Below are positions 8,859 through 42,863 of a stretch of DNA of 51,355 nucleotides, piece after piece. Location: the IMG/VR virus record IMGVR_UViG_3300033145_002956, positions 1 to 51,355 of that record; one strand, given 5' to 3'. The translations under genes and the position numbers were made by a program. How positions within the stretch are numbered: position 1 is the first letter of the stretch; each line of letters starts with the position of its first letter. The notes below the pieces were generated by a model. That model saw only the letters and a list, made by a program, of their open reading frames with translations. It was not told the DNA's origin and made no database searches. The DNA comes from a virus.

Positions 8859-8880
8859 TTAATATCACATAAGAATTAAG

Positions 8881-8913: not shown

Positions 8914-8936
8914 TATATTAAATTGGAGATGTTACA

Positions 8937-8981
8937 ATGGTATTATTTTGTTCGTTCTTAGGCGGCGGTGAGTATGACTGA
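8937..8981 (+). CDS. Possible 14-aa leader peptide
   Basis: ATG after TTGGAGATGTTACA, encoding MVLFCSFLGGGEYD and ending inside the helicase start region (ATGACTGA overlap). It has a better ribosome site than most tiny frames here and could couple or attenuate helicase translation. Confidence 0.4.
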   Translation: MVLFCSFLGGGEYD

Positions 8982-14377: not shown

Positions 14378-14381
14378 ATTC

Positions 14382-14402
14382 TTTCCTTTTTTTTCTTTTT
14401 TT
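14382..14402 (+). terminator. T-tract after the S-layer gene
   Basis: TTTCCTTTTTTTTCTTTTTTT directly follows the S-layer stop, a strong archaeal termination signal fitting a highly expressed single-gene transcript. Confidence 0.6.
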
Positions 14403-14415
14403 AAGAGAGGAGAAA

Positions 14416-14511
14416 ATGGAAACAGAGAAATTTGATATTTTGCTTTTGGCGAGTGCTTTGATAGTTGTTACGGTAGCTTTTGCGATCATGGCGTATATTA
14501 TTTTGAAGTGA
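14416..14511 (+). CDS. Single-span membrane peptide, 31 aa
   Basis: ATG follows AGAGAGGAGAAA. The product is METEKFDI followed by one hydrophobic helix and a terminal Lys. One of many short single-span peptides in this genome, possibly virion membrane components. Confidence 0.55.
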   Translation: METEKFDILLLASALIVVTVAFAIMAYIILK

Positions 14512-14615
14512 TCTGGGCTCAAGTGCAGGGTGCTTTCATCATATCACCATTCCTCCTATGAAATGATTCTCCTGCTGAGAAACTCAGATTGCTTTCCTTT
14601 TTGGAGGTGAGAAAA

Positions 14616-14924
14616 TTGAAGAAGATTGAAGCAAAAAAGAATTCCATTTTGATAGCTGGGGAAGTAGAAATATATCCTGAAGCGATTTATGTGCATCGGG
14701 CGTTTGGAGTAGAAGAAAAAAGAGCAGGGGAAATAGGGAAGTGTGTTAGAGCTCTTCACATTATGGAGGGTTGTGAATCTCAGGTAATTTTGAAGTTGGC
14801 GGAGAAATTCGTATTGCCTAATGAGTTTCTTTTTGCAGTCTGGTTATGTGGATGGCATTATCAGAGGATGGAGATCAAGTCTCTCTTAGTGAAAGCTGGA
14901 GTGCCAGCAGATTTTTTGTGGTGA
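14616..14924 (+). CDS. Hypothetical protein, 102 aa
   Basis: TTG 14616 is chosen because GGAGGTGAG sits five bases upstream; the frame opens earlier but without a site. The product is soluble, mixed alpha/beta, ending LLVKAGVPADFLW. The tRNA begins two bases after its stop, so processing of this transcript probably releases the tRNA. Function unknown. Confidence 0.6.
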   Translation: MKKIEAKKNSILIAGEVEIYPEAIYVHRAFGVEEKRAGEIGKCVRALHIMEGCESQVILKLAEKFVLPNEFLFAVWLCGWHYQRMEIKSLLVKAGVPADFLW

Positions 14925-24347: not shown

Positions 24348-24491
24348 ATGGAGAAGTCTACTGAAGAGCTCCTCATCATTGCTGGCGTAGTTTTAATCAT
24401 AGCCTTCCTTATCTATAAGAGTAGCCAGAGGTCTCATCAAACTATAATCGAGCCTACGGAAAAGGGTGGATATGTCATTATTGAGACGTGA
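24348..24491 (+). CDS. Single-span membrane protein, 47 aa
   Basis: ATG after TAGGGGGGAGTTCT. A helix LLIIAGVVLIIAFLIYK then a polar tail (HQTIIEPTEKGGYVII). The stop overlaps the GTG start of the Cys-repeat protein. The same N-terminal anchor style recurs in the Cys-repeat proteins. Confidence 0.55.
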   Translation: MEKSTEELLIIAGVVLIIAFLIYKSSQRSHQTIIEPTEKGGYVIIET

Positions 24492-25150
24492 TCGCTGTGG
24501 AAAGAGAGACAGTAGAAAAAGCAACTGTGTTATTTGGAGGGCTTGTATTACTTGCAGGTCTCTTAAAGGTTCATGCTCAGCCTCCGCCTCCTCAATGTGA
24601 AACTGCATGTGAGATAAGTTGTCAAGCGTGTGAAATCTGTGAGGCTGGAGAGGTTCCATGTGGTACTTGCGAAACTGTGTGTGAAACCACATGCGAAACC
24701 TGTGAATTTGAACTCCCTCCCTGCGAAACTTGTGAGGCTGGAGAAGTCCCGACTCCACCTGTTCCTCCGATTGAAATTGAAATGCCTCCTGCTTCTGTAA
24801 AGAGAGTGTCTAAAATGATTTCATTTAGCAAAACTATAGATGGATCGTATGAAGTGCTTAGGGAAGATACAGCGGGAGCTATAAAAGAACTTCTATTTGC
24901 TTCTCCTTCAGATAATTACAAGATTAAAGTAGTTCTTGACGGCTCTAATGTTTATGATGATACCTTTGCTAATTTGCAGTCTATTTCTTCAGGTTTGAAC
25001 GACCTTGCTGCATACTCCTCAGGAGGAACTTATTACTTGAACATTACTGAGTTGTATTATCTAAAGAGCTGTGTTATTGCTATTGAGACTTATGAGAGTA
25101 TTGCTTTCTCTAAGCTTTATATCAAGTATGAGGTGCATGAATATGCCTGA
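24488..25150 (+). CDS. Anchored Cys-repeat protein fused to a fibre-base domain, 220 aa
   Basis: GTG start. A hydrophobic N-terminal helix (TVLFGGLVLLAGLLKVHA), then a Cys-x3/Cys-x2 region (about residues 38-85; QCETACEISCQACEICEAGE is its start), a Pro-rich hinge, and a C-terminal domain KMISFSKTIDGSYEVLREDT...LYIKYEVHEYA. The last domain is homologous to the 34914-35375 protein. The Cys region follows the same C-[EQ]-x-x pattern as the 1070-aa protein, so it is a predicted substrate of the radical SAM enzyme at 30232. Probably a virion or surface appendage. Confidence 0.65.
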   Translation: MIAVERETVEKATVLFGGLVLLAGLLKVHAQPPPPQCETACEISCQACEICEAGEVPCGTCETVCETTCETCEFELPPCETCEAGEVPTPPVPPIEIEMPPASVKRVSKMISFSKTIDGSYEVLREDTAGAIKELLFASPSDNYKIKVVLDGSNVYDDTFANLQSISSGLNDLAAYSSGGTYYLNITELYYLKSCVIAIETYESIAFSKLYIKYEVHEYA

Positions 25151-25535
25151 GATGGTAGAGATTTTAGATCAATTAAAAAAATTAAAGGGTATCTCTACGG
25201 GGTCTGCCTCGGTTACTGTAGCTAGTACTGCACCTATTACTGGTACTGTGACTGTTGGGGTGAGTCTCCCCTTGACTGTACTTAGAGTTGGTCAGATCAC
25301 TGTAGGAGCTACAACCTCAAAAGCTCTTACTTCCTCGTGTACTTCTAAAGCTGTAGGTCTTGTTGCTCATTCTGGCAATGCAGGCAAGGTCTACTTTGGG
25401 CATAGTTCTTCAGTGTCAACTTCCAGCGGTTTTGAGTTGTCTGTACCTGTATCTTTATCTATTGATAATGCGAATAAAATTTATGTAATAGCAAGCACTT
25501 CGGGTCAGAAGGTCTGTTGGGTGGTGTTGAGATGA
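25143..25535 (+). CDS. Fibre-type protein, paralogue of the 35.4-36.0 kb gene, 130 aa
   Basis: ATG 25143 has AGGTG at proper spacing. The region QITVGATTSKALTSSCTSKA ... KIYVIASTSGQKVCWVVL matches the C-terminal third of the 35368-36046 protein. Over about 57 bases (25293-25350 against 35804-35861) the DNA is almost identical, pointing to recent duplication or gene conversion. Beta-rich, with paired Cys. It overlaps the neighbouring genes. Confidence 0.62.
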   Translation: MPEMVEILDQLKKLKGISTGSASVTVASTAPITGTVTVGVSLPLTVLRVGQITVGATTSKALTSSCTSKAVGLVAHSGNAGKVYFGHSSSVSTSSGFELSVPVSLSIDNANKIYVIASTSGQKVCWVVLR

Positions 25536-26620
25536 CTGGTGAGATAAAGAAGAGGAATGATCTTTCTTTGCCTGGTCGAAGTAAGTGTCTTATTATGGAT
25601 GATGATTATATTTATTACAGTAAGGAGTCTGGTGGCAGTACAAGTGTGTACTATATTAGCATATTAGACTTCATAGGTGATAATGCTGAGACTCTTGTGG
25701 GCACAAGATCACCTAATACTGGTTATACTTCTATTTATACGATGAAACTCGATAAGTTGGATAATATGGATATTTTAATTGGTAGTATGTTGCAGTATAG
25801 TGATACAGATATAGACGAGCTTTTCTGCTATTGGAAAAATGTTCATACTTCCCCTACTCGACAGGATGGAGTTACTGGTTATTGGGAATATGAAGGGATG
25901 GTTGGATGGACAGGTGCGAATGATTACTGTTATTATATAGGTTCTTCTTCTGCTGGTGATCATGGTGTTGTTCGTGATAGGCGTTATGTGAACACAAGTG
26001 ATTATGCGTCCAAGTCTGGTGGCACTGGTGGTTTTGGTAATTGGCATGATGTAGCATGTAGTAATAGATATATCCATGGTATAGACTTGAGAGTTGGGGG
26101 TGTTGGACCTAGTGGGATCTATGGAATCTATGATGTTACTAAGTGGGATGATGCTTGGGAAGATTTTGAACTTTATTATGCTTCTATTTCTGGAAGATCA
26201 GGTATTATTTATGATAGTGTGAATGATAAATTTATAAGTTGGGGGTATAATAATCGTAGAATCTACATAGCTGATCCTACTTCTTCTAATCCTGATGCAG
26301 TATATTTTGACACTCCTTCTTCTGAGGGAAATGTTACTGATGTGAGATCCTATGGAGGATATCTATATATTGGTACTACTACAAATGGCAAGGTTTTGGT
26401 ATATGATATATCTGGTAATAAGAAAGGGGAGTATGATACGGGTGTTGCATCGCCAATAACAGCGGTTGCTGCAAATGCATCTTATGTTTGTGCAGTTTGT
26501 AGTGGATGGATGTATTTGTGGAAAATAGCAGGCGTTCCAGTTTCGGTTAATATGTCATTCCCTCTTGGTGGTCTTAAGTCTCGTTCGATTATCAGCTTTG
26601 CCAGAGGTGTATCAATATGA
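25532..26620 (+). CDS. Beta-propeller-like surface or fibre protein, 362 aa
   Basis: Repeating strand patterns with aromatic and Asp-rich blades (KCLIMDDDYIYYSKESGG, DKFISWGYNNRRIYIADP, GYLYIGTTTNGKVLVYDISG, SYVCAVCSGWMYLWKIAG) resemble a WD40/NHL-type propeller. Likely a receptor-binding or adhesion head. It overlaps the fibre gene before it and the Cys-repeat gene after it (ATGA), so it is co-translated with the cassette. Confidence 0.6.
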   Translation: MTGEIKKRNDLSLPGRSKCLIMDDDYIYYSKESGGSTSVYYISILDFIGDNAETLVGTRSPNTGYTSIYTMKLDKLDNMDILIGSMLQYSDTDIDELFCYWKNVHTSPTRQDGVTGYWEYEGMVGWTGANDYCYYIGSSSAGDHGVVRDRRYVNTSDYASKSGGTGGFGNWHDVACSNRYIHGIDLRVGGVGPSGIYGIYDVTKWDDAWEDFELYYASISGRSGIIYDSVNDKFISWGYNNRRIYIADPTSSNPDAVYFDTPSSEGNVTDVRSYGGYLYIGTTTNGKVLVYDISGNKKGEYDTGVASPITAVAANASYVCAVCSGWMYLWKIAGVPVSVNMSFPLGGLKSRSIISFARGVSI

Positions 26621-27009
26621 AAAACAAAAAAATTGTTATTGGTCTTGGTGCTCTTGGAATAGGCCTCTACTTACTGAGTAGGGCAAGAGCTTGTCCTACA
26701 GATGTTCCCTGTGGGGTATCTGAAATCTGTGGAGATTGTCAGGCTATTTGTCAGGTAGGTGAGGCTTGCTATACTTGTGATGTTTCCTGCGAGCCTGTTT
26801 CTCAGCAGTGTGGAACTGCTGAGTGCGGGGTAGGTTGTGAGGTTTCTTGTGAGGAGACCTGTGAGCTTCGTTGTGAGGAAGGTTGTATGGTCGATTGCCA
26901 GACTGCATGTCAGGCTCAGTGCGAATGGATGACTGAGCAGTGCAAAATCTGTGAAACTCTTTGTGAAGTTCACTGTCAGGTAGGATGTGAAGTTTCTGTG
27001 GAGGGCTGA
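26617..27009 (+). CDS. Anchored Cys-repeat protein, 130 aa
   Basis: N-terminal hydrophobic helix (KIVIGLGALGIGLYLLS), then a Cys-rich stretch for almost the whole remainder (for example CGVGCEVSCEETCELRCEEG), mostly Cys every fourth residue followed by Glu or Gln. No other domain. The simplest predicted substrate of the downstream radical SAM maturase. It overlaps the propeller gene and is followed one base later by the 1070-aa gene. Confidence 0.68.
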   Translation: MKNKKIVIGLGALGIGLYLLSRARACPTDVPCGVSEICGDCQAICQVGEACYTCDVSCEPVSQQCGTAECGVGCEVSCEETCELRCEEGCMVDCQTACQAQCEWMTEQCKICETLCEVHCQVGCEVSVEG

Positions 27010-27010
27010 A

Positions 27011-30000
27011 ATGGAGAAAAAAAATCTTGCTATCGTTGGAGGTTTAGGTGCATTGGCCGCTTATTTATATTATACTCGTAGACCTTGTGAGCTGTGTGAG
27101 ACCTGTGAGACTTCATGTGAGTTTTCATGTCAGACTTGTGAAATTTCTCAGGATGTTCCTGATCATTGTGGTCGAGATAATCCCGATTGGAAACATGATG
27201 ATCAGATTTATGATGTAACTTCTGTAATGAACTCTCAGGGCTACTCTGGATATTGGGAGTTAGATGTAACTATGCATAATGGACCATCAATCATATCTAT
27301 TTATGGGCCTGAAGAGCCTCCAGAGAGAAGTGATAAAGAAAAGGTACAATCGTGGCTTAGTGGTTTTGACTTGCATAGAGGCTTTTGTTATATTGATAAT
27401 AATTATTACTGGCTTAAATATCCAGCATCTTTGACACATACTCCTTACCCTCCGTGTCTTACTTGTGAAGTCGCCTGTGAGTCTTCATGTATGGAGAGTT
27501 GCGAGGTTCACTGCCAGACAGGTTGTGAGGTCTCCTGTGAGGCTGACTGTGAAACAGCATGTCAGGTTGGATGTGAGATTTCGGTAGAGCCACCGTCTCC
27601 TCCTGAGAAGAGGAAGTTAAGTATCCATGCAGAGGAGGGAGGCACAACTGATCCGTCTCCTGGCACTTACTATCATGATCCTTTGGATGTTGTTAGAGTC
27701 TTGGCAATTCCCAATTCAGGATATATCTTTGATCATTGGTCTCTTGGTGGGTCAAAGTTTTATCCTAATCCTATTGATGTGCTGATGGATGCTGATATTA
27801 ATTTGATAGCTTACTTTAAGGAAGCTCCATCGCCACCTTGTGGTACAGAGGATGTTCCTACACCTCCTCCTCCTGAACCTGGAACTGGGCATGTTTTAGT
27901 TACTTCTTTAGAGGTAGAGAGTGTTCCTGCTACTACAGAGGGAGGATGTAACACTTTACATTATGAAGCTGTGCTGACAAATCCAGGTTCTGAGTCTGCT
28001 ACTCACCATGTGGAGATTTACTTGGAGTATGGCGGTACTTCCTCAAGTATCTACAGTCAGGATGTTACTCTTGAGCCTGCTCAGACTAAATATCTTGCTA
28101 ATAATATCAGAATGTGCCTAAGTGGAACTTTAACCGTAGGTATGTCTGTAACTATTCGGGTAGTTGCAGAAAATGAAAAATCTGCGAGTGTTGTGCTTTA
28201 CCCCGGACCAACTCCTCCTCCTTGTACTACTCAGTGTGAGATCTGTGAAACTCCTTTTGAAATATGTGGTGTTATAGAAACATGTGGAACTTTAGAAACT
28301 TGTCCTACGGATGTTTGTAGAGTATCTTGTGAGATTCCCTCTGAAATTCTTCCTCCTTCAGGAATTGAAGTTTGGGTATTCTCTCAGCCAGAGGAGATTT
28401 GTCCTCCATGTCCTTTAGCTGCTAGGGCTGCTCAGGAGGTTGCTAGTGAGTATAATGTAGGTTTTAAGGATATAGATACCTTTACTGATGAGGGTAGAGT
28501 GTTGGCGGAGCAGTATAATGTTACGAGCACTCCTACTACAGTAGTCTTTGTAGATGGTACAGTAAAATGTAGATGGGAAGGGTATTTTTCCAATCTAAAG
28601 GATGTTCTTAGGGATTGTCTTGATCAGTATGTGTCAATTCCAGGTAGAAAGGTGCTGTTTTATATAGATGGTACTCTTGTGCATCAGGCGCAGGTAAGTT
28701 CTGTTCTCACCGAGTCTGCTTTTGATGAGTGTTACTTTGCACATGGTGGTAAGAGTGGTAATGAGGAGCTGGGTCCTCCTACTTTTGCAGGAGAGAAGTT
28801 TTGTTTTCATGCACATATTGGAGGAGAGTGGGGAGTGACTTATTCTCTCTTTGGATATACTGCTGAATCTGGGACTCATACTGTTACTGCGAAGCTTGTT
28901 GATGAAAATGGTAATGTTTTGGATACATGCTCGAAGACATATTCGATTGAAGCTCCTCCTCCTGAAGAGTGTACAATTGATGATGATGTCTGGAAACATG
29001 GAGATGAAGTCTATGATGTTACAGAAGTCATGAATCGTAATGGTTATGATGGGGAGTGGACTTTGTCAGTCACGATGCGTAATGGTCCGACAGGTATAGA
29101 GCTATTTGGTCCAACTGAGCCGCCTGCAAGGGAAGAGTTAAAGATGATAGCTTCATGGCAGGCGGGATATGATCTTCATAGGGGTTTCTGTCCAAAGGAC
29201 AATAATTATTATTGGTTACATTATCCTGTTGAGCTTACTCAGATTTCTGGCCCTACACCGTCTTCATCGGCTTTGTCTTTTGAGGGTGTTACAATAACTT
29301 CCTCTGGTGGTACTCATCCTTCAGATTTCGATGTTTCTGGGCGTGTTTCTAATCCAAATGCGTTTCCCGTAACTACAACAGTGGAAGCTTGTTATGCAGT
29401 TAAGGGGGGTTCCAATGAGACGGATTGTGATCTACAGACTCTTACTGTTCCTGCTCATGGTTCCTCCTCCTTTAGTATACACCTCCATGTTACGAATTGG
29501 TGCATTCCTCCTTATAAATGTGGTGGCAGTTGTACTGTTACTGTAACGGGAGATAAAATAGGGGATTATGTATCTCGGAAGTTTATGGCAGATGGAAGTG
29601 CCGAGCCTTATGAATATGGTGGAGGAACAGGTGAGCCTCCTGATGTTTGGTGTGAGATGTGTGATGTTTCCTGTGAGGAAACCTGCGAAATTTCTTGTCA
29701 GGCTGATTGCGAAGTTGCTTGCCAGACAGGCTGTGAAATCTCTTGTGAGGAAGAATGTGAATTATCCTGTCAATCTGCTTGTGAGTGGTGCATGATCTCT
29801 TGTGAAAACTGCGAAGGTCGCTGTGAAACAGGTTGTGAGGTTGCTTGCCAGACTTCTTGTGATGTTTCTTGTGAAGATTACTGTGAAAAGGCTTGTCAGG
29901 GAGCATGTGAGTTGGCTTGCGAAGAGAATTGTGAATATGCCTGTCAGGCTTACTGTGAATCTTACTGTCAAATTGGTTGCGAAGTGTCTTGTGAAACGGG

Positions 30001-30223
30001 TTGTATGGTTTCTTGTCAGGCGTCTTGTCAAGTGTCTTGTCAGGCTACCTGTGAAAGGGCTTGTCAAACCACTGCTGAATACTGTGCAACTCATTGTGAA
30101 ACCACCTGTGAGGCTATGTGCATGACGCATTGTGAGTATTGCGAAACCAGTTGCGAGCTTCAGTGTCAGACTATGTGTGAGGTAGGTCATGAAGGAGTGT
30201 GTGTAAATATAGAACCATATTAG
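27011..30223 (+). CDS. Giant multidomain Cys-repeat appendage protein, 1070 aa
   Basis: Order: N-terminal hydrophobic anchor (2-22); Cys cluster; domain A (about 60-140, WKHDDQIYDVTSVMN...); second Cys-x3 block (about 155-190); InlB-like repeat (LSIHAEEGGTTDPSPGTYY, about 198-270); Ig-like domain; third Cys region; thioredoxin-like domain with ICPPCP and a later STPTTVVFVDG cis-Pro segment (about 453-540); further beta domain; second copy of domain A (about 660-745); another Ig-like domain; final Cys block (about 880-1066) with roughly 46 cysteines, nearly all spaced C-[EQ]-x-x. No other protein here approaches it in size. Predicted virion or surface fibre whose Cys stripes are modified by the radical SAM enzyme encoded 8 bases downstream. 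Confidence 0.75.
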   Translation: MEKKNLAIVGGLGALAAYLYYTRRPCELCETCETSCEFSCQTCEISQDVPDHCGRDNPDWKHDDQIYDVTSVMNSQGYSGYWELDVTMHNGPSIISIYGPEEPPERSDKEKVQSWLSGFDLHRGFCYIDNNYYWLKYPASLTHTPYPPCLTCEVACESSCMESCEVHCQTGCEVSCEADCETACQVGCEISVEPPSPPEKRKLSIHAEEGGTTDPSPGTYYHDPLDVVRVLAIPNSGYIFDHWSLGGSKFYPNPIDVLMDADINLIAYFKEAPSPPCGTEDVPTPPPPEPGTGHVLVTSLEVESVPATTEGGCNTLHYEAVLTNPGSESATHHVEIYLEYGGTSSSIYSQDVTLEPAQTKYLANNIRMCLSGTLTVGMSVTIRVVAENEKSASVVLYPGPTPPPCTTQCEICETPFEICGVIETCGTLETCPTDVCRVSCEIPSEILPPSGIEVWVFSQPEEICPPCPLAARAAQEVASEYNVGFKDIDTFTDEGRVLAEQYNVTSTPTTVVFVDGTVKCRWEGYFSNLKDVLRDCLDQYVSIPGRKVLFYIDGTLVHQAQVSSVLTESAFDECYFAHGGKSGNEELGPPTFAGEKFCFHAHIGGEWGVTYSLFGYTAESGTHTVTAKLVDENGNVLDTCSKTYSIEAPPPEECTIDDDVWKHGDEVYDVTEVMNRNGYDGEWTLSVTMRNGPTGIELFGPTEPPAREELKMIASWQAGYDLHRGFCPKDNNYYWLHYPVELTQISGPTPSSSALSFEGVTITSSGGTHPSDFDVSGRVSNPNAFPVTTTVEACYAVKGGSNETDCDLQTLTVPAHGSSSFSIHLHVTNWCIPPYKCGGSCTVTVTGDKIGDYVSRKFMADGSAEPYEYGGGTGEPPDVWCEMCDVSCEETCEISCQADCEVACQTGCEISCEEECELSCQSACEWCMISCENCEGRCETGCEVACQTSCDVSCEDYCEKACQGACELACEENCEYACQAYCESYCQIGCEVSCETGCMVSCQASCQVSCQATCERACQTTAEYCATHCETTCEAMCMTHCEYCETSCELQCQTMCEVGHEGVCVNIEPY

Positions 30224-30231
30224 GTGATAAG

Positions 30232-32580
30232 ATGAGTGGAAATATTAAAGATTTAGATATAGAGAAAATGAGAAAAAGTCAAAGGTCTGTAGTAAATTTA
30301 GTTGCGTACACTACTGAAGCCTGTAATTTAGCCTGCGACTACTGTCACGAGAAAGGTACGCCTATCTTGATGGCAGATTGCAGTTGGAAACCTATAGAGT
30401 TGCTTGAGGTAGGGGATAAAGTAATGGGTTTAGTTAAAAAGAAGAGTTCAACTGGAAAAAGTGAAAATTGGACTTTTGCTAAAACAGAGGTGGAGGCTAC
30501 TACTTCGAGAATTTCGGATACTCTTGTACTGTCTACAGACAAGGGTGATTTTATTTGTACTCCTGAACATAAGTGGTTAGAGAGGCATCATGGTTATAAA
30601 GAATGCAAGGATTTTGTTGAAGGGCAGTTTATAAAGTATGTTTCTCCTCCTGTTGTTGTCGAGGAAACAGAGAATTATAAACTTGGATGGCTTGTTGGAA
30701 TTATTCTTGGTGATGGAACTGTCTCTTGGTATGACTATGATTATGGAAAGATTCGTAGATTTAGGTTAGCTGTTAAGGATAAGGAAATCATTGAACGTTT
30801 TAAGAATTATATGTGGGATGTTCCTTTCCATGATTTTATTATGAAAACAAGGACTGGTAATCTCTTTGCTATTAGAACGGACATCATATCTTGTGCGGAG
30901 AAAATAAGAGATTTGAGTCGTTTGTGGATAGATGATTTTGATTTCTATAGAGGTTTCTTAGGAGGAATCTATGATGCTGAAGGGTATACAGATGGTTATT
31001 CTATAAGAATTGCGAATAAAGATTCCTATATCCTTTCAAGAATTAGAGAGTGTCTCTCTAAATTAGATTTTATGTATGTTTATGAACCGGCGGAGACTTC
31101 TACTAGTCGTACTCCTAAAATACGAGTACTTGGAGGTATGGCACAGAATGTAAGGTTTATTGCTTTGGCTAATCCTTCTATTGGTAGGAAACGTCAGGTA
31201 CTTGAGGGTAAGCAAGTGCATGGCAATGCTCAAGTTTTAGGGCTTAGAGAGGGTGAGAAACAGAGGGTGTACAATATTATGACTGGAACGGGTAACTATG
31301 TTGCTGGAGGTCTAGTATCCAAGAACTGTTTTGTTCCTAAAAAGAAGAATCCTAAAAGCATGGATAACAAAACAGGGGAAGCTATGGTTGATTTTCTAAT
31401 AAAAAATTCTGGTGCTGAAAAAAGAGTTTCCATTGCTTTCTTTGGTGGCGAACCCTTACTTAACTTTGGGCTTATAAAACATGTCGTTAATTATGGTAGT
31501 AGAAAGGCAAAGGAAGCTGGGAAAGTTATGAATTTCTCGGCGACTACGAATGGAACGTTATTTGCTCTAAAACCTGAAATACTTAAATATTGGGAAGAAC
31601 ATAAGCTTGGTGTTCTCCTTTCTATAGATGGATGCGAACAAACCCACAACCTTCATAGAAAGACTAAGGATGGAGAAGGTAGCTGGAAATTGGCTATCCA
31701 GTGTATTCCTACACTCAGACGTTATCTTAAAATGTTTACAGTTAGAGTTACATACTTCCCAGATCACTTCGATCTTCTTGAAGATATTATGGCTCTCATG
31801 AAGCTCGGTGCTCCTAATATTGCTGTTGTTCCTGTGGCTGAGGCTGATTTTGATAATCCAGAGACTTGGTCTAAAGTCGAGAAGATGTACTGGGATCTTG
31901 CGAAAGTTTTTGTTTCTCTTGCTCGAAATGATTGTATTCTTCCTCTTTCCTTTGAGAGAAAGATGTTACTTGATATGTGGAGAATCAGGCACGGTGGCTC
32001 TCGTAAAAGAGGTCCCTGTGGAGCTGGTAAGGGAATGCTTGGAATTTCAACTGAAGGAATAGCGTACCCATGTCACAGATTCGTGGCTCAGGATAAGTAT
32101 AGACTTGGAGACGTTTTCAATGGTATTGATCCTGTAAAGAGGGCAGAGTTTTTGCAGATAAATCAGGATAAAATAAAAGGTGATCTTGAAGACTGTGCTA
32201 TGTGTAGAGCCTTTGAAGTCTGTGGTGGCAGTTGCATCGCTAACAATAATGTGTGGTGTGATAGCATGTACCAGAGTGTTGGAGGTCACTGTAAGATTAT
32301 TAGACTGAGATATGATATATGTAATTATATATATAATCTTTTGGTCTATAAAGAAAAGAATTCTGCTTTAATCAATTATCTTACTACTCATAGCAATATG
32401 GGGAGGAGAATGATAGGTGGACAGGGTAAGGGACAGCCTAAACGACCACCATATCCACAAAATATAAATACTCCAAAGACTATAGATGAGTCTATACGTC
32501 TAATAAAAGAGGGGCTCAAGACAGCTCCTCCTGACATAAAGGAGAAATTAAAAAGAGAACTAAATTTGGAGGTTAAATAA
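30232..32580 (+). CDS. Radical SAM/SPASM peptide maturase, intein-containing
   Basis: 782 aa precursor, about 454 aa after splicing. The radical SAM motif starts as CNLACDY and its third Cys is split by the intein; splicing restores CNLACDYCF, the classic CxxxCxxC. Then FFGGEPLLNF (the GGE SAM-binding motif) and a SPASM C-terminus with CGAGKGML...YPCHRF...CAMCRAFEVCGGSC and further Cys for auxiliary clusters. Enzymes of this layout (anSME, SCIFF and CXXX-repeat maturases) modify ribosomal peptides, often making thioether links at Cys. Three Cys-repeat proteins lie immediately upstream, making them obvious substrates. ATG 30232 follows TAGGTGATAAG. It acts in the cytoplasm under anoxic conditions. 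Confidence 0.9.
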   Translation: MSGNIKDLDIEKMRKSQRSVVNLVAYTTEACNLACDYCHEKGTPILMADCSWKPIELLEVGDKVMGLVKKKSSTGKSENWTFAKTEVEATTSRISDTLVLSTDKGDFICTPEHKWLERHHGYKECKDFVEGQFIKYVSPPVVVEETENYKLGWLVGIILGDGTVSWYDYDYGKIRRFRLAVKDKEIIERFKNYMWDVPFHDFIMKTRTGNLFAIRTDIISCAEKIRDLSRLWIDDFDFYRGFLGGIYDAEGYTDGYSIRIANKDSYILSRIRECLSKLDFMYVYEPAETSTSRTPKIRVLGGMAQNVRFIALANPSIGRKRQVLEGKQVHGNAQVLGLREGEKQRVYNIMTGTGNYVAGGLVSKNCFVPKKKNPKSMDNKTGEAMVDFLIKNSGAEKRVSIAFFGGEPLLNFGLIKHVVNYGSRKAKEAGKVMNFSATTNGTLFALKPEILKYWEEHKLGVLLSIDGCEQTHNLHRKTKDGEGSWKLAIQCIPTLRRYLKMFTVRVTYFPDHFDLLEDIMALMKLGAPNIAVVPVAEADFDNPETWSKVEKMYWDLAKVFVSLARNDCILPLSFERKMLLDMWRIRHGGSRKRGPCGAGKGMLGISTEGIAYPCHRFVAQDKYRLGDVFNGIDPVKRAEFLQINQDKIKGDLEDCAMCRAFEVCGGSCIANNNVWCDSMYQSVGGHCKIIRLRYDICNYIYNLLVYKEKNSALINYLTTHSNMGRRMIGGQGKGQPKRPPYPQNINTPKTIDESIRLIKEGLKTAPPDIKEKLKRELNLEVK
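30343..31326 (+). other. Intein in the radical SAM gene (328 aa)
   Basis: Begins with Cys (CHEKGTPILMAD) and ends ...AGGLVSKN before Cys+1 (CFVPKK). The block B-like CTPEHKWLE is present. Two LAGLIDADG-type motifs (LGWLVGIILGDGT and RGFLGGIYDAEGY) indicate a homing endonuclease. The usual penultimate His is replaced by Lys. Insertion is exactly at the third Cys of the [4Fe-4S] motif, so the enzyme is inactive until splicing. Confidence 0.93.
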
Positions 32581-32581
32581 A

Positions 32582-33010
32582 ATGGTAAATTGTGTAGCGA
32601 ATGACTTCAAAGGTGAAGGCTCGGTAATTTACTACAGTGGAGAAGGTTCAAGTCCTGCTCTTGATTGGTATGCTGAGCAAACTGGTAAAGATTGGCAGCT
32701 TACGGTGGATTATAGACAAGTGCTGGAGTTTCGTTACTATGGTACTTCAGAGCCCCCAGAGAGAGATTTAAGTCTCCAAGTCATGGATTGGCAGGCTGGA
32801 TATATGTGGGGTAGATTTCAGGTGAATCAGTATTGTGAAAAAGATCCCAATGGAGGTTATTATTACTTGGTGAAATATGCGGCAACGCTTGAAGAGGTTA
32901 CTGTTCCTCCTGTTCCTCCTGTTCCTGATGAGATGAAGTACATAATTGCTGCAATATTGATAGGAGGAGTTGCATTGATGGCTTATAACTCTTTAAAGAA
33001 GGAGGTCTGA
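32582..33010 (+). CDS. Domain-A protein with C-terminal membrane helix, 142 aa
   Basis: The body (residues 4-105: EGSVIYYSGEGSSPALDW, YYGTSEPPERDLS, WQAGYMWGRFQVNQYCEKDP) is a third version of the domain found twice in the 1070-aa protein. A Pro-Val hinge and a C-terminal helix YIIAAILIGGVALMAYN follow. Presumably a membrane-anchored partner of the large appendage protein. The ribosome site lies at the end of the radical SAM gene. Confidence 0.62.
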   Translation: MVNCVANDFKGEGSVIYYSGEGSSPALDWYAEQTGKDWQLTVDYRQVLEFRYYGTSEPPERDLSLQVMDWQAGYMWGRFQVNQYCEKDPNGGYYYLVKYAATLEEVTVPPVPPVPDEMKYIIAAILIGGVALMAYNSLKKEV

Positions 33011-33013
33011 TAA

Positions 33014-33865
33014 ATGGTGCTGTGGTGCGTTCCTGATGATTTTAAAGGTGTCGGAAAAGCCGATTATTTCTCTGGTAGTGGTAGGAGTGCTTCTTTAGAT
33101 TGGTGGTCTGAGCAAACAGGTAAAGAATTTGAGCTTACGGTAGATTACACTCAGGTCTTGGACATTGTTTATTATGGAACAGATTGTCCTCCAGAGAGAG
33201 ATTTTAGTGATCAGATCAATGATTGGCTCAGCGGTCATATGTGGGGGAGATACCAAGTTAATGACCGATGCGAAAAAGATGAAAATGGAGGGTATTTCTA
33301 CTGGGTTAAATATAAAGCAGAGTTATATGAGCTTGAGCCTACGCCTCCCCGTTTTAGAATGGAGTGTAAGTTGCTTCCCTTAGTGCCGAACGCAATTTAT
33401 AATCTATCTGCTAAAATATCTGAATTTGTATATAATCTACTCCAGAAAGTTACACCTTTGGGCTTTACTATTGAAAATTGCTATGTGGAGAATAGTACTC
33501 TCTATGTAGATTTTAAAGAGGAAGGTAGTCCAATTGGTTGGGCTGTGGTAGCTATTGTAATTGCTGTATGTGCTGCTTTTGGTATTGCAGTTGTCTCTTG
33601 GAAGGGTATTGTAGGTGAGAGAGAGATGACAAAAAGGCAGACTGCTCTCCAAGATTTTTGGGATGCTCGTTATCAAGCTCTTATAGGTGAGGGTGTCGAT
33701 CCTGAAACTGCTGCGAGGCTAGCAACTGATGCATCGGAAGCGGTGAAACAAGAGCAGGAGAAGGAGAATTGGACGAAGTATCTTATGTATGGCGTGCTTG
33801 CCATTGTTGGTATTATAGCTGTGAAATATTTGGTGATTCCAATGCTTGAACATAGAGGTGATTGA
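33014..33865 (+). CDS. Domain-A protein with two membrane helices, 283 aa
   Basis: N-terminal domain A (about 5-110: GKADYFSGSGRSASLDWWSE, YYGTDCPPERDFS, GRYQVNDRCEKDENGG), a beta segment, a membrane helix (GWAVVAIVIAVCAAFGIAVV, about 175-195), a charged helical loop, and a second membrane helix near the C-terminus (YLMYGVLAIVGIIAVKYLVI). Looks like a base or anchor for the appendage. Starts three bases after the preceding gene. Confidence 0.6.
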   Translation: MVLWCVPDDFKGVGKADYFSGSGRSASLDWWSEQTGKEFELTVDYTQVLDIVYYGTDCPPERDFSDQINDWLSGHMWGRYQVNDRCEKDENGGYFYWVKYKAELYELEPTPPRFRMECKLLPLVPNAIYNLSAKISEFVYNLLQKVTPLGFTIENCYVENSTLYVDFKEEGSPIGWAVVAIVIAVCAAFGIAVVSWKGIVGEREMTKRQTALQDFWDARYQALIGEGVDPETAARLATDASEAVKQEQEKENWTKYLMYGVLAIVGIIAVKYLVIPMLEHRGD

Positions 33866-33866
33866 T

Positions 33867-34418
33867 TTGGCTGAACTCTATTGGGGAGAAAGAGAAGCAA
33901 AAGTAAATATTGCACAGGAACTCGCTAAGATGGGAATAACGATGACATTTATCTGGTTTGCTGAGTGGCTCTATCGTAGGATTTCATCGCCTGTATCGTC
34001 TGGTATGTCTTGTTCTGTAGCTTCTCAGTTTCCTCTAGATTCGCCTTACAATCATTTAGAACCTGTGGTTGGTGTATCCTCTCTCCAGGATGTAGCTAAT
34101 TATATGTCAACATTAAAGTATCATAGAGATCCTTTCTTCAAAGATTACTATCAACCTGTTCATGTAACTATGGAGAAGGGTACAGGCGATTGTGAAGATA
34201 TGGCTATTGTTGCTGGTAGTCTCGTGCAGTCCTTAGGTATTACACCTTCATTTGCGTATCTTTACAACCCTGATGAGCTAGAGGGACATACTGTGGCATA
34301 TTGTATTTATGATGGCTATTTATGGATTTTCTCTAATAATAAAACTTATGTCCTTGAAGCTGAGAGGGTAAGTAGTCTTGTGGATATTTTTGATTATCAG
34401 TGTGTGGAGGTGCTTTAG
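33867..34418 (+). CDS. Transglutaminase-like cysteine protein, 183 aa
   Basis: TTG start after AGAGGTGATTGA. KGTGDCEDMAIVAGSL provides a predicted catalytic Cys (about 109) and EGHTVAYC a His (about 141); an Asp follows near residue 150 (IYDGYLW). This is the Cys-His-Asp order of transglutaminase/protease-fold enzymes. An N-terminal hydrophobic segment (GITMTFIWFAEWLY) may anchor it. It could crosslink or process the appendage proteins encoded around it, or cleave host wall material. Confidence 0.68.
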   Translation: MAELYWGEREAKVNIAQELAKMGITMTFIWFAEWLYRRISSPVSSGMSCSVASQFPLDSPYNHLEPVVGVSSLQDVANYMSTLKYHRDPFFKDYYQPVHVTMEKGTGDCEDMAIVAGSLVQSLGITPSFAYLYNPDELEGHTVAYCIYDGYLWIFSNNKTYVLEAERVSSLVDIFDYQCVEVL

Positions 34419-34892: not shown

Positions 34893-34913
34893 AGGGAAAT
34901 GAGAGATATTGTT

Positions 34914-35375
34914 ATGTTTCGCAGAAGAGACTGGGCTTCATTGATTATACAGGCAGAGTTAACAGGTAAAAAAATAGCTGAAGCTGGGAGTGTTCAGTAT
35001 GAAACTGTTGTTAGGGAAAAGCCAAAAACTACAGAAATTTATGCTCAGAAAGACCTTACTCTTGATAGTAACTCAGTTTTTGTCGATGTCAAAGGATATG
35101 GGAAGGTTCATGAAATATTTTTAATGACAGATAGCCAGAACTACAAAATTTATGTCAATGTTGATGGAAAAGATCTTTATGATGATACTTATTCTCATTT
35201 AAGAGAAATGAGTAGATTCTTAAATGAGATCGGAACGAGAACAAGTGGCTCTTATTATATTCTTTCAATTGTAGATATTCCTTTCTCTACATCTTTATAT
35301 ATTCGTGTTGAACCTTCTGAGTCTATCGTTTTTAAAGAGGTCTCAATAAAGTATGAGGTAGGTAATAGTGTCTAA
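34914..35375 (+). CDS. Fibre-base protein, paralogue of the 24.5 kb C-terminal domain, 153 aa
   Basis: ATG 34914 suits a leaderless start; ATG 34899 is an alternative. The C-terminal 100 residues (NYKIYVNVDGKDLYDDTYSH ... VSIKYEVGN) match the last 110 residues of the 24488 protein. This copy lacks the membrane helix and Cys repeats. Beta-rich, probably a fibre or baseplate element. Confidence 0.62.
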   Translation: MFRRRDWASLIIQAELTGKKIAEAGSVQYETVVREKPKTTEIYAQKDLTLDSNSVFVDVKGYGKVHEIFLMTDSQNYKIYVNVDGKDLYDDTYSHLREMSRFLNEIGTRTSGSYYILSIVDIPFSTSLYIRVEPSESIVFKEVSIKYEVGNSV

Positions 35376-36046
35376 CGTCAATGATATAAATACAGATGCT
35401 TCTGGAGACATCCAAGTCGATGTTAAAACTATGCCTTCTATTTCTGTAGCTACTGGTGTGGTTAAGGTTTCTAAAATTTTATCTACCTCTCCTGTTACTG
35501 GTACGGTCTCTGTTGGAAATATTAATTTAGATGCTTCCTCCGATGTTCAGGTCGATGTTAAAACTATGCCTACTGTGAATGCTACGGGATATGTCACGGT
35601 CAAAAGTCTCTGTTGGAAATATTAATTTAGATGCTTCCTCTGATGTTCAGGTCGATGTTAAAACTATGCCTACTGTGAATGCTACGGGATATGTCACTGT
35701 AAAGAACTTCCCAGCTACTCAAACTGTAAGTGGTAGTGTGTCTCTAGTGGGAACTTCTCCAGTGGATGCAGATATTCAGCCTTTGTCTTCTATAAAAACA
35801 GGTCAGATTACTGTAGGAGCTACAACCTCAAAAGCTCTTACTTCCTCGTGTACTTCCAAGTGTGTTTCTGTAGAGCCTCATTCTGCAAATACTGGAAAGG
35901 TGTATGTTGGTGGGGATTCTTCGGTGACTACATCTACAGGTTGGGAACTCGTAGCACCTATTTCGTTTGATGTCGATAATGCTAGCAAGATCTATGTCAT
36001 AGCAAACCAAGCAAATCAGAAAGTTTGTTGGGCGGTGTTGGGATGA
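35368..36046 (+). CDS. Fibre-type repeat protein interrupted by a -1 frameshift
   Basis: GTG 35368 overlaps the previous stop. The opening frame stops at 35625 within a duplicated stretch. A -1 shift at GTCAAAAGTC (about 35600) restores the frame that continues VSVGNINLDASSDVQVDVKT to the stop at 36044-36046. The full protein would be about 226 aa of short repeated strands (NINLDASSDVQVDVKTMPT) and a C-terminal domain shared with the 25143 protein. The ~100-bp duplication overlaps the shift site, so slippage or recombination may switch the fibre on and off. Confidence 0.6.
35507..35701 (+). repeat. Tandem duplication in the second fibre gene
   Basis: About 96 bases from GTCTCTGTTGGAAATATT (35507-35602) are repeated at 35606-35701 with a couple of substitutions. 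The spacing is not a multiple of three in the given sequence, which is the cause of the frameshift. Confidence 0.8.
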
Positions 36047-37954: not shown

Positions 37955-40003
37955 TTATTTACAGCATCCTGTACTCTTTATATTTTTTTTGACTGTATTT
38001 TTGTCTTTCTTTCTCATTTTCATTCTTGCTACTACGTCTTCTATTCTCTTCTTTTCCAGTTCTTGTACTAAATTCATTTTCTCCCACTTTTCATATAATC
38101 CAAGCATTTTTAGAATTATCTTTGGGATGTCTATTATGCTATTGCTCTCTTCTTTGTTGCTTGTGTAGTAGAAGGCGTCTATATAGTGTTGTGTGCTTTT
38201 AAATCCATGATCGCTTGTCATTACTAAATTTTTATAGTCAAAGAAGTCTATTACTTCTTTAACGTAGTTGTCTATGAAATAATATACACTGTAGTCATTT
38301 CTGTGACATAGTACATCTACAATGCTTGTTCCTAAAAAAACAACGTTTGTGGGGTATTTCTTATAGAGATCGAAGAACAGGTGCAGTTTATCCATCTCAA
38401 ATTCTTTAGCTTTTATGAGTTCAACATATCCAGCATTTGGGGGAGGTATAAATTCTGGTTTGTACCATTCTGGAAGCTCTTTCTCAAGCCATTTAGGGTA
38501 GCAGTAATCTTTTCCCGAGGTTGGAAAACCACTAATGATATAGCCATTTATTGGTCTTGGTGGCCATGTAATTGGCATATTAAAAAGCCACTCACTGTAC
38601 GCATCGCCGATAATATCAAAGATTGTTATCGTCTTTATATTTGTAAAATACTGTTCTCCTCGTGTCCATCCTCCGCTTGTTATTCCGTGAATTTTAGGTT
38701 CGACTCCTGTATATATTGTACTCCAACAGTTGTGGACTGCGATGTTGTTTATTGTGTAGGAGTTGTCTTCTGCGACTTCGAGGTTGTATACTTCGCCTTC
38801 GTAATCCTCTTCTTTTATGTCTCTTATTGAGATTTCAAAAGTGTTTCCTTTCCTTGTCCAAAGTTTTTGTTTTACTTCTTCATTGGTTTGAAGAATTACA
38901 TTGCCAAATTCTGCGTTTGCTGAGAGCCTATATGCTTTGTGTGTATTTCTACCTTTGTTAGAAAAGGATGTAATTCCACTGACGACACCTATTTTTAGGA
39001 GCATTCTTTGCACTGTTTGGAGGATAGGCAAACAGATGGAGGTTATATAATAATTGTTTTTTCTTTTGTGTCCATCTCCTTTCCAGTATCCTCTTATTAA
39101 TGCCTTTATTAAGTAAGGAGGCAAATATTCTATTTTAGGGGGTATCTTCTTTATACCTTTTGGGGTATTTCCTTCTTTAAATTGTCTGAGGAAATAGTAA
39201 AGTCCTTTGTGTCGTAGCCTTAGTCTAGCAGCGCCTGTATGAAAATGGATGTCACATTTACCAAAGGTGCTAAGATATTTTTGGTACTGTGAGATTAGTT
39301 CTTCATTCAGTTCGTTGAAAGTGATCCTCACATTGTAATTTCCATCAAAAAAAATGCTTCCATCTGCTAACCACATACCCACAAATTCCCAGAATCTTGC
39401 TTTTTGAAATTCTTCTCTTCTTATTGTCTTCGCTCTATTGTTATATGTGTTTATTTTTTTATAGAATATCTCTGGGTCTATCTCAGGGTATTTTATTGAG
39501 GGTACTACTAATCTATATTCTTTACTTATGTCTTTTGCTTCTATCCATTCTTGTTCTTGCGTTCTTATTGTGATGGGTTGTATTTTATGTTTTCTTTTTT
39601 CGTTGTCATAGTGCCTATACTTCTTTGTGGCTCTAATCGGATGTTCAGGAGTACAGAGTATATCTTCCATGTAGAAAGGAGAAATATGTACAATCTTCCC
39701 TTTGTAAAATCTTTTAAAAACCTTAGTAACTGTTTGGAAGCGCCCTCTGTGTGTTAAAACTTTGTCTCCTTCTTTAATTTCACTTATGTCTTTTTCTCCT
39801 TCTATTGTTGTTACTCTATGTCCTTTTGGAAAGCATGGACCCGAGTGTGGAACAATGTCGTCTGATAAAATGCTTCTGTGTACTCCAAGCTTTCCTTCTT
39901 TGCTAAGCTTTTTAAAGGTCGGATAAGAGTTTAAATATCGTAGAAGGTACAGCCCTGATACGCCATCAATTCCGAGCATTAATAAATCCAACTTTGCTGT
40001 CAT
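37955..40003 (-). CDS. Alkaline-phosphatase-superfamily phosphodiesterase with intein
   Basis: 682 aa precursor, about 313 aa after splicing. LLMLGIDGVSGLYL carries the first metal-binding Asp; spliced VPHSGP-CWSTIYTGVEPKIHGI is the nucleophile region of type I phosphodiesterases/nucleotide pyrophosphatases; LVMTSDHGF supplies the conserved Asp-His metal ligands. It would hydrolyse phosphodiesters or transfer phosphate groups, perhaps on nucleotide sugars or surface glycans, since it lies divergently next to the glycan module. TATA-like CTTTTTAAATGTG about 25 bp upstream indicates a leaderless start. The C-terminus is Lys-rich. Confidence 0.82.
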   Translation of the reverse strand: MTAKLDLLMLGIDGVSGLYLLRYLNSYPTFKKLSKEGKLGVHRSILSDDIVPHSGPCFPKGHRVTTIEGEKDISEIKEGDKVLTHRGRFQTVTKVFKRFYKGKIVHISPFYMEDILCTPEHPIRATKKYRHYDNEKRKHKIQPITIRTQEQEWIEAKDISKEYRLVVPSIKYPEIDPEIFYKKINTYNNRAKTIRREEFQKARFWEFVGMWLADGSIFFDGNYNVRITFNELNEELISQYQKYLSTFGKCDIHFHTGAARLRLRHKGLYYFLRQFKEGNTPKGIKKIPPKIEYLPPYLIKALIRGYWKGDGHKRKNNYYITSICLPILQTVQRMLLKIGVVSGITSFSNKGRNTHKAYRLSANAEFGNVILQTNEEVKQKLWTRKGNTFEISIRDIKEEDYEGEVYNLEVAEDNSYTINNIAVHNCWSTIYTGVEPKIHGITSGGWTRGEQYFTNIKTITIFDIIGDAYSEWLFNMPITWPPRPINGYIISGFPTSGKDYCYPKWLEKELPEWYKPEFIPPPNAGYVELIKAKEFEMDKLHLFFDLYKKYPTNVVFLGTSIVDVLCHRNDYSVYYFIDNYVKEVIDFFDYKNLVMTSDHGFKSTQHYIDAFYYTSNKEESNSIIDIPKIILKMLGLYEKWEKMNLVQELEKKRIEDVVARMKMRKKDKNTVKKNIKSTGCCK
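38729..39835 (-). other. Intein in the phosphodiesterase gene (369 aa)
   Basis: Starts CFPKGHRVTTIEG, has ILCTPEHPIRA (block B) and LAGLIDADG-type motifs FVGMWLADGS and ALIRGYWKGDG, ending NIAVHN before Cys+1. The penultimate His is present, unlike the other intein. Insertion lies between the metal motif and the nucleophile region, so activity requires splicing. Confidence 0.92.
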
Positions 40004-40075: not shown

Positions 40076-40729
40076 ATGACAGAAAGTAAAACTGAAGATG
40101 GTATGCCTGCTATGAATATTGCTCTTGCGTTGAATACAGGAGGTACTTGTGCTACTAAGACTCTTGAGACTTTCCTTATTAACATTATACGCTTTTTGTC
40201 TAGTAGGCAGGACAAATGTCTTGTGAATTATATATTTGTGGAAGCAGAGTCATCGAATCCTTCTCGGGCTTCTAATATGTTGTGTAAACAGTTGATTGAG
40301 CTTGACTATGACTATGTATTCTTCTTTGATTTGGATATAGTGATGCCTCCAAATTTACTTACTGATCTGATTGAGAACGCTGAGAAAAAAAACTTAGATA
40401 TTGTTTGTGGATGGGCTTATCAAAAGGATTTCCCGCCAAAAACCAATTTATTACTGAGAGAGGAAGGAGGCTATGCAGTAATAACTGAGATTGGAACTAA
40501 AGAGTTGTTTGAGGTAGATGCTACTGGTCCTGCCTGTATGCTTTTAAGGAAGGGTGTAATAGAATCCATTGAGCCTCCCTGGTTCCAAGATTCACAGGGA
40601 AATTTTAAGGAGGGTGATACCTTTGTTGGTCCAGATATAAGACTCTGTGAGAAATTTAAGAAGGCAGGCTATAAGATATGGATTGATCCTAATCTGCGAT
40701 GTGGTCATATAGGTAGGTATGTATTCTAA
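40076..40729 (+). CDS. Family 2-type glycosyltransferase, 217 aa
   Basis: GT-A layout: an N-terminal nucleotide-binding region (MNIALALNTGGTCATKTLET), the DxD-like metal motif FFFDLDIVMPPNLL (about residues 82-95), a substrate loop and a conserved end GPDIRLCEKFKKAGYKIWID. It transfers a sugar from a nucleotide donor to a glycan or protein. Short for the family, with no membrane helix. First gene of the rightward glycan operon. Confidence 0.8.
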   Translation: MTESKTEDGMPAMNIALALNTGGTCATKTLETFLINIIRFLSSRQDKCLVNYIFVEAESSNPSRASNMLCKQLIELDYDYVFFFDLDIVMPPNLLTDLIENAEKKNLDIVCGWAYQKDFPPKTNLLLREEGGYAVITEIGTKELFEVDATGPACMLLRKGVIESIEPPWFQDSQGNFKEGDTFVGPDIRLCEKFKKAGYKIWIDPNLRCGHIGRYVF

Positions 40730-40738
40730 GGTGATTGA

Positions 40739-41206
40739 GTGTATAAAGTGTATCCCAACGCTGTAATTCCAAAGAGGGAGAATGTGAGTATAGGAGATCA
40801 TAGTGTCATAGAGGATTTTGTACTTATTTATTCTTCAAAGGTGGAGATAGGGAAGTATGTGGAGATTGGAGCTGGTACGAAGATTGTTGGGAAAGGAGAG
40901 CTATATATAAGTGATTTTGTTACAATTGCTCCAAGTTGTGTAATAATCACTTCGACTCCCAATCTGCATAAGGAACTTATGGTGTCCTCTATGATACCTG
41001 ACAACATGAGAGATCCTATTATCGGAAAGACTTTTATAAGAAATCATGCTTTCATAGGTGCGGGTTCTATTATCCTTCCTAATGTGGAGATTCAGAGGAA
41101 GTGTGTTGTAGGTGCTAATTCTACAGTTCTGTCTAATTCTGTGCTTGAATCAAATTCGGTATATGTTGGTTCTCCTGTTAAGAAAGTAGGGGTGAGATTT
41201 AGATGA
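40739..41206 (+). CDS. Left-handed beta-helix acyltransferase, 155 aa
   Basis: GTG after TAAGGTGATTGA. Hexapeptide repeats throughout (NVSIGDHSVIEDFVLIYSSK, VGANSTVLSNSVLESNSVYV) ending VGSPVKKVG, the signature of sugar O- or N-acetyltransferases. Probably acetylates the amino sugar made by the aminotransferase encoded two genes downstream. Confidence 0.85.
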   Translation: MYKVYPNAVIPKRENVSIGDHSVIEDFVLIYSSKVEIGKYVEIGAGTKIVGKGELYISDFVTIAPSCVIITSTPNLHKELMVSSMIPDNMRDPIIGKTFIRNHAFIGAGSIILPNVEIQRKCVVGANSTVLSNSVLESNSVYVGSPVKKVGVRFR

Positions 41207-41442
41207 AATTAGATGCCTTCATACCAGATTATGAGCCTCATAAAAGATTACCTGTAAAATTGTCTAAAAAGTCACCTAAAAAATTACCTAATCAGTGCGT
41301 AGTAGATCATGATTGTGAGGGGGAAGTTAGAATAAGAGAGACGAATCGTGAGGGTGTTGTGATACCCCTATGTGACAAACACTATAAAAGATTGGTTAAG
41401 GTTGGTCTTGATATAAACTTGTTTATGTCTGGAGGTAAATAA
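41203..41442 (+). CDS. Small zinc-binding hypothetical protein, 79 aa
   Basis: Overlaps the acyltransferase stop. Basic N-terminus (RLPVKLSKKSPKKLPN), then CVVDHDCEGEVRI ... VIPLCDKHYKRLV, giving a Cys/His set typical of small zinc folds. Its place inside the sugar operon is odd. No function assigned. Confidence 0.58.
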   Translation: MKLDAFIPDYEPHKRLPVKLSKKSPKKLPNQCVVDHDCEGEVRIRETNREGVVIPLCDKHYKRLVKVGLDINLFMSGGK

Positions 41443-41443
41443 G

Positions 41444-42553: not shown

Positions 42554-42555
42554 AT

Positions 42556-42861: not shown

Positions 42862-42863
42862 TT

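Follow-up and report, generated by a model that had tools for sequence, protein, structure and literature searches.

A cysteine-repeat locus with its own radical SAM enzyme

The IMG/VR virus record IMGVR_UViG_3300033145_002956, analysed here as one window of 51,355 bases, encodes three proteins with C-[EQ]-x-x repeats and, directly behind the largest of them, a radical S-adenosylmethionine (SAM) enzyme of the SPASM type (Table 1). The enzyme gene starts at ATG 30232, 8 bases past the stop of the gene for Cys-repeat protein 3 (30223). A sequence-only reading of this DNA had recognised this spacing and proposed that the enzyme acts on the repeats; it overlooked the intein that interrupts the enzyme gene. 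It also described three consecutive repeat proteins. The repeats and the hydrophobic N-termini are there, but two other genes intervene between the first protein and the second.

The tract at the C-terminus of protein 3 holds 45 cysteines in the last 187 residues and 46 in the last 190, close to the about 46 in 187 claimed earlier. For this protein ATG 27011 is the better start, giving 1070 amino acids. Codon-aligned runs of five C-[EQ]-x-x units match 17 times in the window and never in 100 dinucleotide shuffles. In CxxxC units of the window, the residue directly after Cys is Glu in 57%, Gln in 24% and Met in 7%. The gene for protein 3 uses both Cys codons (TGT 74, TGC 16), and its Glu and Gln codons are mixed too; this points to selection on the Cys tracts at the level of the protein rather than to a simple DNA repeat.

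Sequence comparison identifies the Cys tract as an added module: the same virus encodes paralogues of the same domains without it. These include the two genes downstream of the maturase gene, which share the duplicated domain of protein 3, and 34899-35375, related to the C-terminal domain of protein 1 (40% identity over 87 amino acids, E 7e-19). None of the three Cys-repeat proteins matched a known virion or tail family in profile searches, and we infer their identity as fibres. AlphaFold models were too poor to use, with predicted local distance difference test (pLDDT) values of 54 for the 130-residue protein and 35 for the 193-residue protein.

Table 1 Features of the maturase locus, with the comparable reading frames of Salmonella phage SPN3US in the last line. 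Positions are those of the window unless another record is named.
Feature	Position	Strand	Basis or remark
Cys-repeat protein 1, 220 aa, 13 Cys; hydrophobic N-terminus, C-E-x-x tract, C-terminal domain	24488..25150	+	translation
Intervening protein, not Cys-repeat	25143..25535	+	paralogue of 35579-36046 (58% identity, E 6e-35)
Intervening 367-aa protein, not Cys-repeat	25517..26620	+	weak LVIVD repeat match, below cut-off
Cys-repeat protein 2, 130 aa, 23 Cys; N-terminal hydrophobic segment	26617..27009	+	translation
Cys-repeat protein 3, 1078 aa, 90 Cys; hydrophobic N-terminus, Cys tracts between folded domains	26987..30223	+	translation
Protein 3, domain copy A (approximate boundaries)	27149..27436	+	common to copy B, 32582-33010 and 33014-33865
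Protein 3, InlB-type B-repeat domain PF18998	27617..27826	+	31.7 bits, cut-off 23.6
Protein 3, thioredoxin-like stretch with CPPC	28376..28618	+	matches below curated cut-offs
Protein 3, domain copy B (approximate boundaries)	28988..29266	+	46% identity to copy A
Protein 3, C-terminal C-[EQ]-x-x tract, ~46 Cys	29642..30220	+	translation, pattern match
Radical SAM/SPASM maturase, 782-aa precursor, 454 aa after predicted splicing	30232..32580	+	profiles, alignment
N-extein with the first two CxxxCxxC cysteines (C31, C35)	30232..30342	+	reading of translation
Intein, 328 aa, LAGLIDADG endonuclease, just before cluster C38	30343..31326	+	LAGLIDADG_3 37.4 bits, cut-off 22.5
C-extein, from cluster C38, with seven SPASM cysteines	31327..32577	+	alignment, reading of translation
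Tract-free paralogue of the domain duplicated in protein 3	32582..33010	+	sequence comparison; directly downstream of maturase gene
Second tract-free paralogue of this domain; C-terminal hydrophobic segment	33014..33865	+	sequence comparison
Transglutaminase-like protein	33846..34418	+	PF01841 24.6 bits, cut-off 23
SPN3US (L276, NC_027402.1), tandem Cys-rich reading frames	about 6112-6501, 6515-6916, 6920-7138		upstream of radical SAM gp102, gp103

Kinship of the enzyme to thioether-forming maturases

Once joined, the exteins match Radical_SAM (PF04055) with 60.3 bits, above the cut-off of 29.5. The SPASM profile PF13186 gives 15.6 bits, under its gathering score of 21.5; the seven-cysteine pattern of SPASM is present (C268, C286, C327, C330, C336, C340 and C359). 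Across an alignment of 14 enzymes, the three radical SAM cysteines, C268, C327, C330 and C340 are invariant, and C286, C336 and C359 nearly so. Identity between the window extein and 13 enzymes from other viral contigs is 19-28%, with the cluster cysteines conserved.

The top NCBIfam profile is PapB (NF047865), with 279.7 bits and E 3e-83, residues 24-351 aligning to 6-327 of 330; the score falls short of the curated cut-off of 340 bits. Maturases of quinohemoprotein amine dehydrogenase (218 bits), nif11-type (207) and SCIFF (197) peptides follow. TIGR04115, the family named for CXXX-repeat targets, has a cut-off of 350 and gives 126.2. On these scores we rejected the enzyme as a member of TIGR04115 or of the PapB equivalog, and the link to the named CXXX-repeat family is not supported in the form drawn by the sequence-only reading; one related contig, L137, does encode a full member (485.6 bits) and has a C-x3 repeat open reading frame (ORF). 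That reading fared better on the enzyme's wider affinities: the nearest curated families are maturases for thioethers or peptide cross-links, and no unrelated family came up. By these matches below cut-off, the enzyme is akin to thioether-forming maturases but outside all curated families. Nine other enzymes, scanned singly, had PapB or SCIFF as top match or no strong match; the top match of L127 was SCIFF.

Inteins at cluster cysteines

The intein of the window sits exactly at the third cysteine of CxxxCxxC (CNLACDY/CHEKGT...VSKN/CFVPKK, slashes marking the junctions), and the joined extein retains all cluster cysteines. From reading the translation, Cys1, a block-B-like TPEH, the terminal Asn and the +1 Cys are intact, as are the frame and the LAGLIDADG motifs. 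The Hom_end_hint profile scores 27.1 against a cut-off of 32.1, and the penultimate residue is Lys instead of the usual His.

Altogether, we found five inteins in four distinct maturases. They occupy four sites, each just before a cluster cysteine that is invariant or nearly so. The C38 site is common to the window and L218/L308, and their inteins are homologous (28% identity, E 3e-28). In window numbering, the others lie at C286 in L313 and, as two mini-inteins, at C268 and C340 in L316; at these other cysteines the exteins join cleanly. Inteins commonly hit conserved active-site codons and require Cys, Ser or Thr at the +1 position, and those described here may be a case of ordinary homing. 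It is also possible that inteins at Fe-S ligand cysteines add redox or timing control. We know of no description of cluster-cysteine inteins in maturases of this kind.

A second gene of the window also bears an intein of the LAGLIDADG type; it lies at 37955-40003 on the minus strand and encodes a type I phosphodiesterase/nucleotide pyrophosphatase.

Association of repeats and enzyme across viral contigs

We looked for the pair from both sides. Scanning viral contigs for the C-[EQ]-x-x pattern returned 120 stretches. The repeat set comprised 26 records with the pattern in frame in the dominant ORF and three borderline ones (L002, L008, L034), 29 in all; 50 records with the DNA pattern outside the dominant in-frame ORF served as controls. 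The borderline records were added by eye and not blindly, the radical SAM neighbours of L002 having already been seen. Radical_SAM exceeded its cut-off in 18 of the 29 repeat records and in 2 of the 50 controls (Fisher p 1.6e-8), and 20 of the 29 had a match at E 1e-3. With the three borderline records moved to the controls, the strict blind rule gives 15/26 against 5/53 (p 9e-6). The L002 contig (62,651 bases) has four consecutive radical SAM genes around a C-Q-x-x protein.

Nine of the 29 were negative: four have non-genuine repeats, four are short contigs whose repeat gene reaches or sits near the contig end, and one is a possible counter-example. The first four (L018, L109, L111, L115) were rejected as repeat-positive, since they appear to be chance or out-of-frame translations, and their removal strengthens the association. 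The sequence-only reading had expected that related viruses would not keep the Cys proteins without a radical SAM gene. In five of the 25 records whose repeats appear genuine no such gene was detected, of which the four near contig ends leave a single possible exception.

From the enzyme side, six viral maturases (alignment A2) served as queries, the 14-enzyme alignment being too divergent for scanning the collection; this returned 80 loci, of which 78 were analysed. We used a criterion free of any repeat grammar, at least 11 Cys in 60 residues of a dominant ORF within ~10 kb around the enzyme. Such a Cys-dense ORF occurred in 59/78 enzyme loci against 1/120 random viral loci, which were chosen by an arbitrary 14-mer and similar in total sequence; the p value of 2e-32 is optimistic because of near-duplicate contigs among the 78. 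Maturase-type radical SAM enzymes were themselves found in 1 of the 120 random loci.

Under the strict Cys-x3 criterion, a dominant repeat ORF was present in 39 of the 78 loci and, at 70% clustering, in 34 of 62 clusters. The fairer comparison is confined to the 53 clusters without any contig from the repeat-first scan. Of these, 26 are positive, as is 1 of the 120 random loci (p 4e-15); the set is still not wholly independent, all six queries having been enzymes from contigs with repeats. All 78 Cys-dense ORFs are co-oriented with the enzyme and none is opposite, which is no test by itself because viral genes tend to be co-oriented. The repeat ORF lies at most 50 bp from the enzyme in 16 loci. 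At loci of the E/Q type, Glu follows Cys in 50% and Gln in 33%. The co-occurrence put forward in the sequence-only reading was thus reproduced from either end. Radical SAM matches in unverified human-gut phage scaffolds, without a Cys-repeat partner, were left out of account as genes probably of the SCIFF type.

Repeat types, tract carriers and occurrence outside the contigs

Other tract types accompany related enzymes, among them CNNTCYG (L321, L328, L335, L347), CTCNCNY (L363, L366, L369, L370) and CxxC (L329, L346). In the enzyme tree, the enzymes of the CNNTCYG group fall in one supported clade, and L363 pairs with L369. This suggests that repeat type follows enzyme clade and that enzymes and substrates may have co-specialised. 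All repeat-linked enzymes together are not a single clade; supported branches require at least 14 changes.

Several tract carriers have domains of tail proteins. In L347 the carrier has a match to central tail fibre J (E 4e-35), and in L366 and L370 it contains the endosialidase chaperone Peptidase_S74 (a fibre chaperone) over the cut-off. Weaker matches link carriers in L061, L118 and L298 to tail proteins and those in L010 and L003 to head-decoration or virion structural proteins. The virion location proposed in the sequence-only reading therefore gains support in relatives; for the window virus itself, we infer it.

The pair is also found in cultured jumbo phages. Salmonella phage SPN3US and Erwinia phage phiEaH2 (L272) have, in the same arrangement, three small Cys-repeat ORFs that precede two radical SAM genes and adjoin a virion structural gene. 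These ORFs are unannotated or annotated in another frame; gp100 of SPN3US, for instance, was read from the second Cys-rich ORF in a different frame. Their tract grammar is CSxxC/CSGC, unlike that of the window.

Further pairs occur in a Bathyarchaeota contig, in a second contig binned as Clostridiales and in a planctomycete contig. Another genome of the same archaeal phylum as the first (L502) has a CxxC tract and a radical SAM gene. On the Phycisphaerales chromosome L289, a protein of 662 residues with 144 Cys and a twin-Arg-like signal (8646-10631) is followed ~3 kb downstream by a radical SAM gene (13469-14887).

Other genes of the window virus

The transglutaminase-like protein in the maturase gene block is, by its profile match, a possible further modifying or cross-linking enzyme. 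The virus also encodes an S-layer-like protein (12863-14377; PF05124, 79.8 bits), which could act as a surface mimic. This domain and the inteins are the sole hints to the origin of the virus, and they suggest an archaeal host. A run of sugar genes at 40076-44923, perhaps for a surface glycan, comprises a glycosyltransferase, an acetyltransferase-like, an aminotransferase-like and two epimerase-like genes, identified by appearance, the first alone being profile-checked. Phage searches with the 1078-residue protein and the helicase-like protein (at 8968) returned no relative.

A proposed protein-stapling pathway

We now propose that the locus is a viral protein-stapling cassette, in which enzyme-made thioethers between Cys and Glu/Gln stiffen virion appendages; taken as a whole, we consider this likely. 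Its parts differ in strength. The enzyme very probably modifies the Cys tracts of the window. We favour with moderate confidence a thioether to Glu or Gln as the product, and hold it to be reasonably probable that the modified tracts form an appendage of the virion in this virus.

The intein would splice out first to restore the maturase. With S-adenosylmethionine and its auxiliary clusters, the enzyme would then abstract a hydrogen from the Glu/Gln side-chain carbon beside the carbonyl, and the radical carbon would bond to the sulphur of a repeat Cys, with 2 Da lost per bond. The residues found after Cys are consistent with radical formation at such a position: Glu and Gln have a side-chain CH2 beside the carbonyl and Met has one beside the sulphur. 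PapB joins Cys to side-chain carbons of Asp or Glu in Cys-Xn-Asp/Glu with n of 0-6, and handles tandem and nested motifs, including two tandem CX3E units; the reversed order is not processed (PMC9413430). The substrate thiol binds an auxiliary cluster in PapB (PMC10470005). Since the donor Cys precedes the acceptor there, the likeliest pair in C-E-x-x-C-E-x-x would be Cys i and Glu/Gln i+5. A tract would thereby become a chain of small covalent rings, a stiff rod resisting protease and reduction. Such a rod would suit a reducing, anaerobic host without disulphide formation and would be incorporated in the virion surface or tail.

Several points weigh against this proposal. The natural PapB spacing, CX3D/E, differs from the window repeats, in which Glu/Gln directly follows Cys. 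The enzyme lies beneath every curated maturase cut-off, and its long branch in the tree has no supported close neighbour. We saw no leader-binding (RRE) domain in it, there being 23 residues ahead of the barrel and no dedicated RRE search having been run, and by eye no obvious leader of a ribosomally synthesised and post-translationally modified peptide (RiPP) on its targets. Viral-contig searches with the extein, the 1078-residue, the 193-residue (at 21979) and the helicase-like proteins found no close relative, and we recognised no virion hallmark among the genes of the window. In G019 (L101, a 35.6 kb fragment), a genuine repeat protein is present and no radical SAM gene was detected. Protein 3 has a thioredoxin-like stretch with CPPC, a possible hint of disulphides. 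Finally, the Bathyarchaeota and Phycisphaerales cases mean that the pair is not exclusive to viruses and not solely a virion device.

The alternative that survives best keeps the enzyme on the repeats and changes the chemistry: a sactionine at the alpha-carbon, a cyclophane carbon-carbon bond, hydroxylation or epimerisation, with the cysteines serving recognition or cluster binding. SPASM maturases do produce many bond types, cyclophane and sactipeptide profiles also match, and other viral clades put Asn, Asp, Ser, Thr or Tyr beside Cys, which suggests that acceptor chemistry may differ between clades. However, those profiles score lower than the makers of non-alpha thioethers at the top, and the dominance of Glu and Gln beside Cys fits a side-chain carbon; we hold this alternative to be unlikely.

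A cassette of secreted or membrane effectors, acting for example against competitors or in superinfection exclusion, would account for the hydrophobic N-termini and for similar pairs in cells outside a viral context. It fits poorly with big multidomain carriers, with the tail-fibre and tail domains in relatives and with Cys-free paralogues in the same block, and we consider it quite improbable. Still less probable are metal-binding or disulphide-bonded stalks beside an enzyme with another target. Dense cysteines would be suitable for them, as would the CPPC stretch, but they leave unexplained the near absence of this enzyme type from random viral loci and the linkage to Cys-dense ORFs on a single strand, which no one clade explains. 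That the gene is inactive and the repeats unmodified in the window virus, as the interrupted CxxxCxxC and the penultimate Lys might indicate, is very improbable given an intein with intact motifs and frame, a homologue at the identical site in L218/L308 and clean joins at other cluster cysteines of other maturases.

Beyond the window, we see slightly better than an even chance that viruses of bacteria and archaea widely staple Cys-repeat tracts of surface or tail-fibre proteins with radical SAM enzymes of their own, each clade with its own grammar; virion parts would then be made by a kind of post-translational modification not known from viruses. If the stapling proposal is true, radical chemistry familiar from peptide natural products serves virus structure too and yields highly stable stalks or fibres without need of an oxidising environment. 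Many phage radical SAM genes so far without a function would gain a role, including those of the cultured SPN3US and phiEaH2, where it is testable at once. Peptide stapling would gain long natural substrates and new enzyme clades. It would also be a warning that standard virion proteomics, with fixed Cys alkylation and annotated frames only, can overlook Cys-repeat proteins of this kind.

Comparison with known systems

PapB, the maturase of the ranthipeptide freyrasin, resembles the window enzyme in combining radical SAM and SPASM parts and in its Cys- and acidic-rich target. It differs in having a leader-core peptide as target; the window pairs an intein-bearing enzyme, in which no N-terminal RRE was visible, with large anchored proteins. 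TIGR04115 is named for Cys-x3 repeat targets, and the window enzyme does neighbour Cys-x3 proteins but scores below its cut-off.

QhpD (TIGR03906), the second-best match at 218 bits, has a cut-off of 453 and acts on a bacterial enzyme subunit, not on a repeat protein. There it joins Cys with side-chain carbons of Asp/Glu and so provides a precedent for a target other than a natural product. The SCIFF maturase (TIGR03974; 197 bits, cut-off 425) is a thioether maker for a short Cys-rich peptide without a repeat tract. CefB, the Cys-every-fifth maturase (NF038107; 78.4 bits, cut-off 600), has by its family name a target with regular Cys spacing. NF038136, the intein-containing radical SAM family of Rv2578c type, aligns along the window intein (42.5 bits, cut-off 700); its host protein family differs from the window maturase.

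Radical SAM modification of virion proteins yielded no report in the open-licence PubMed Central library, a collection that has no preprints and leaves out the majority of subscription journals. Both the enzyme class and the notion of CXXX-repeat targets were known before; their use in a viral structure would be new.

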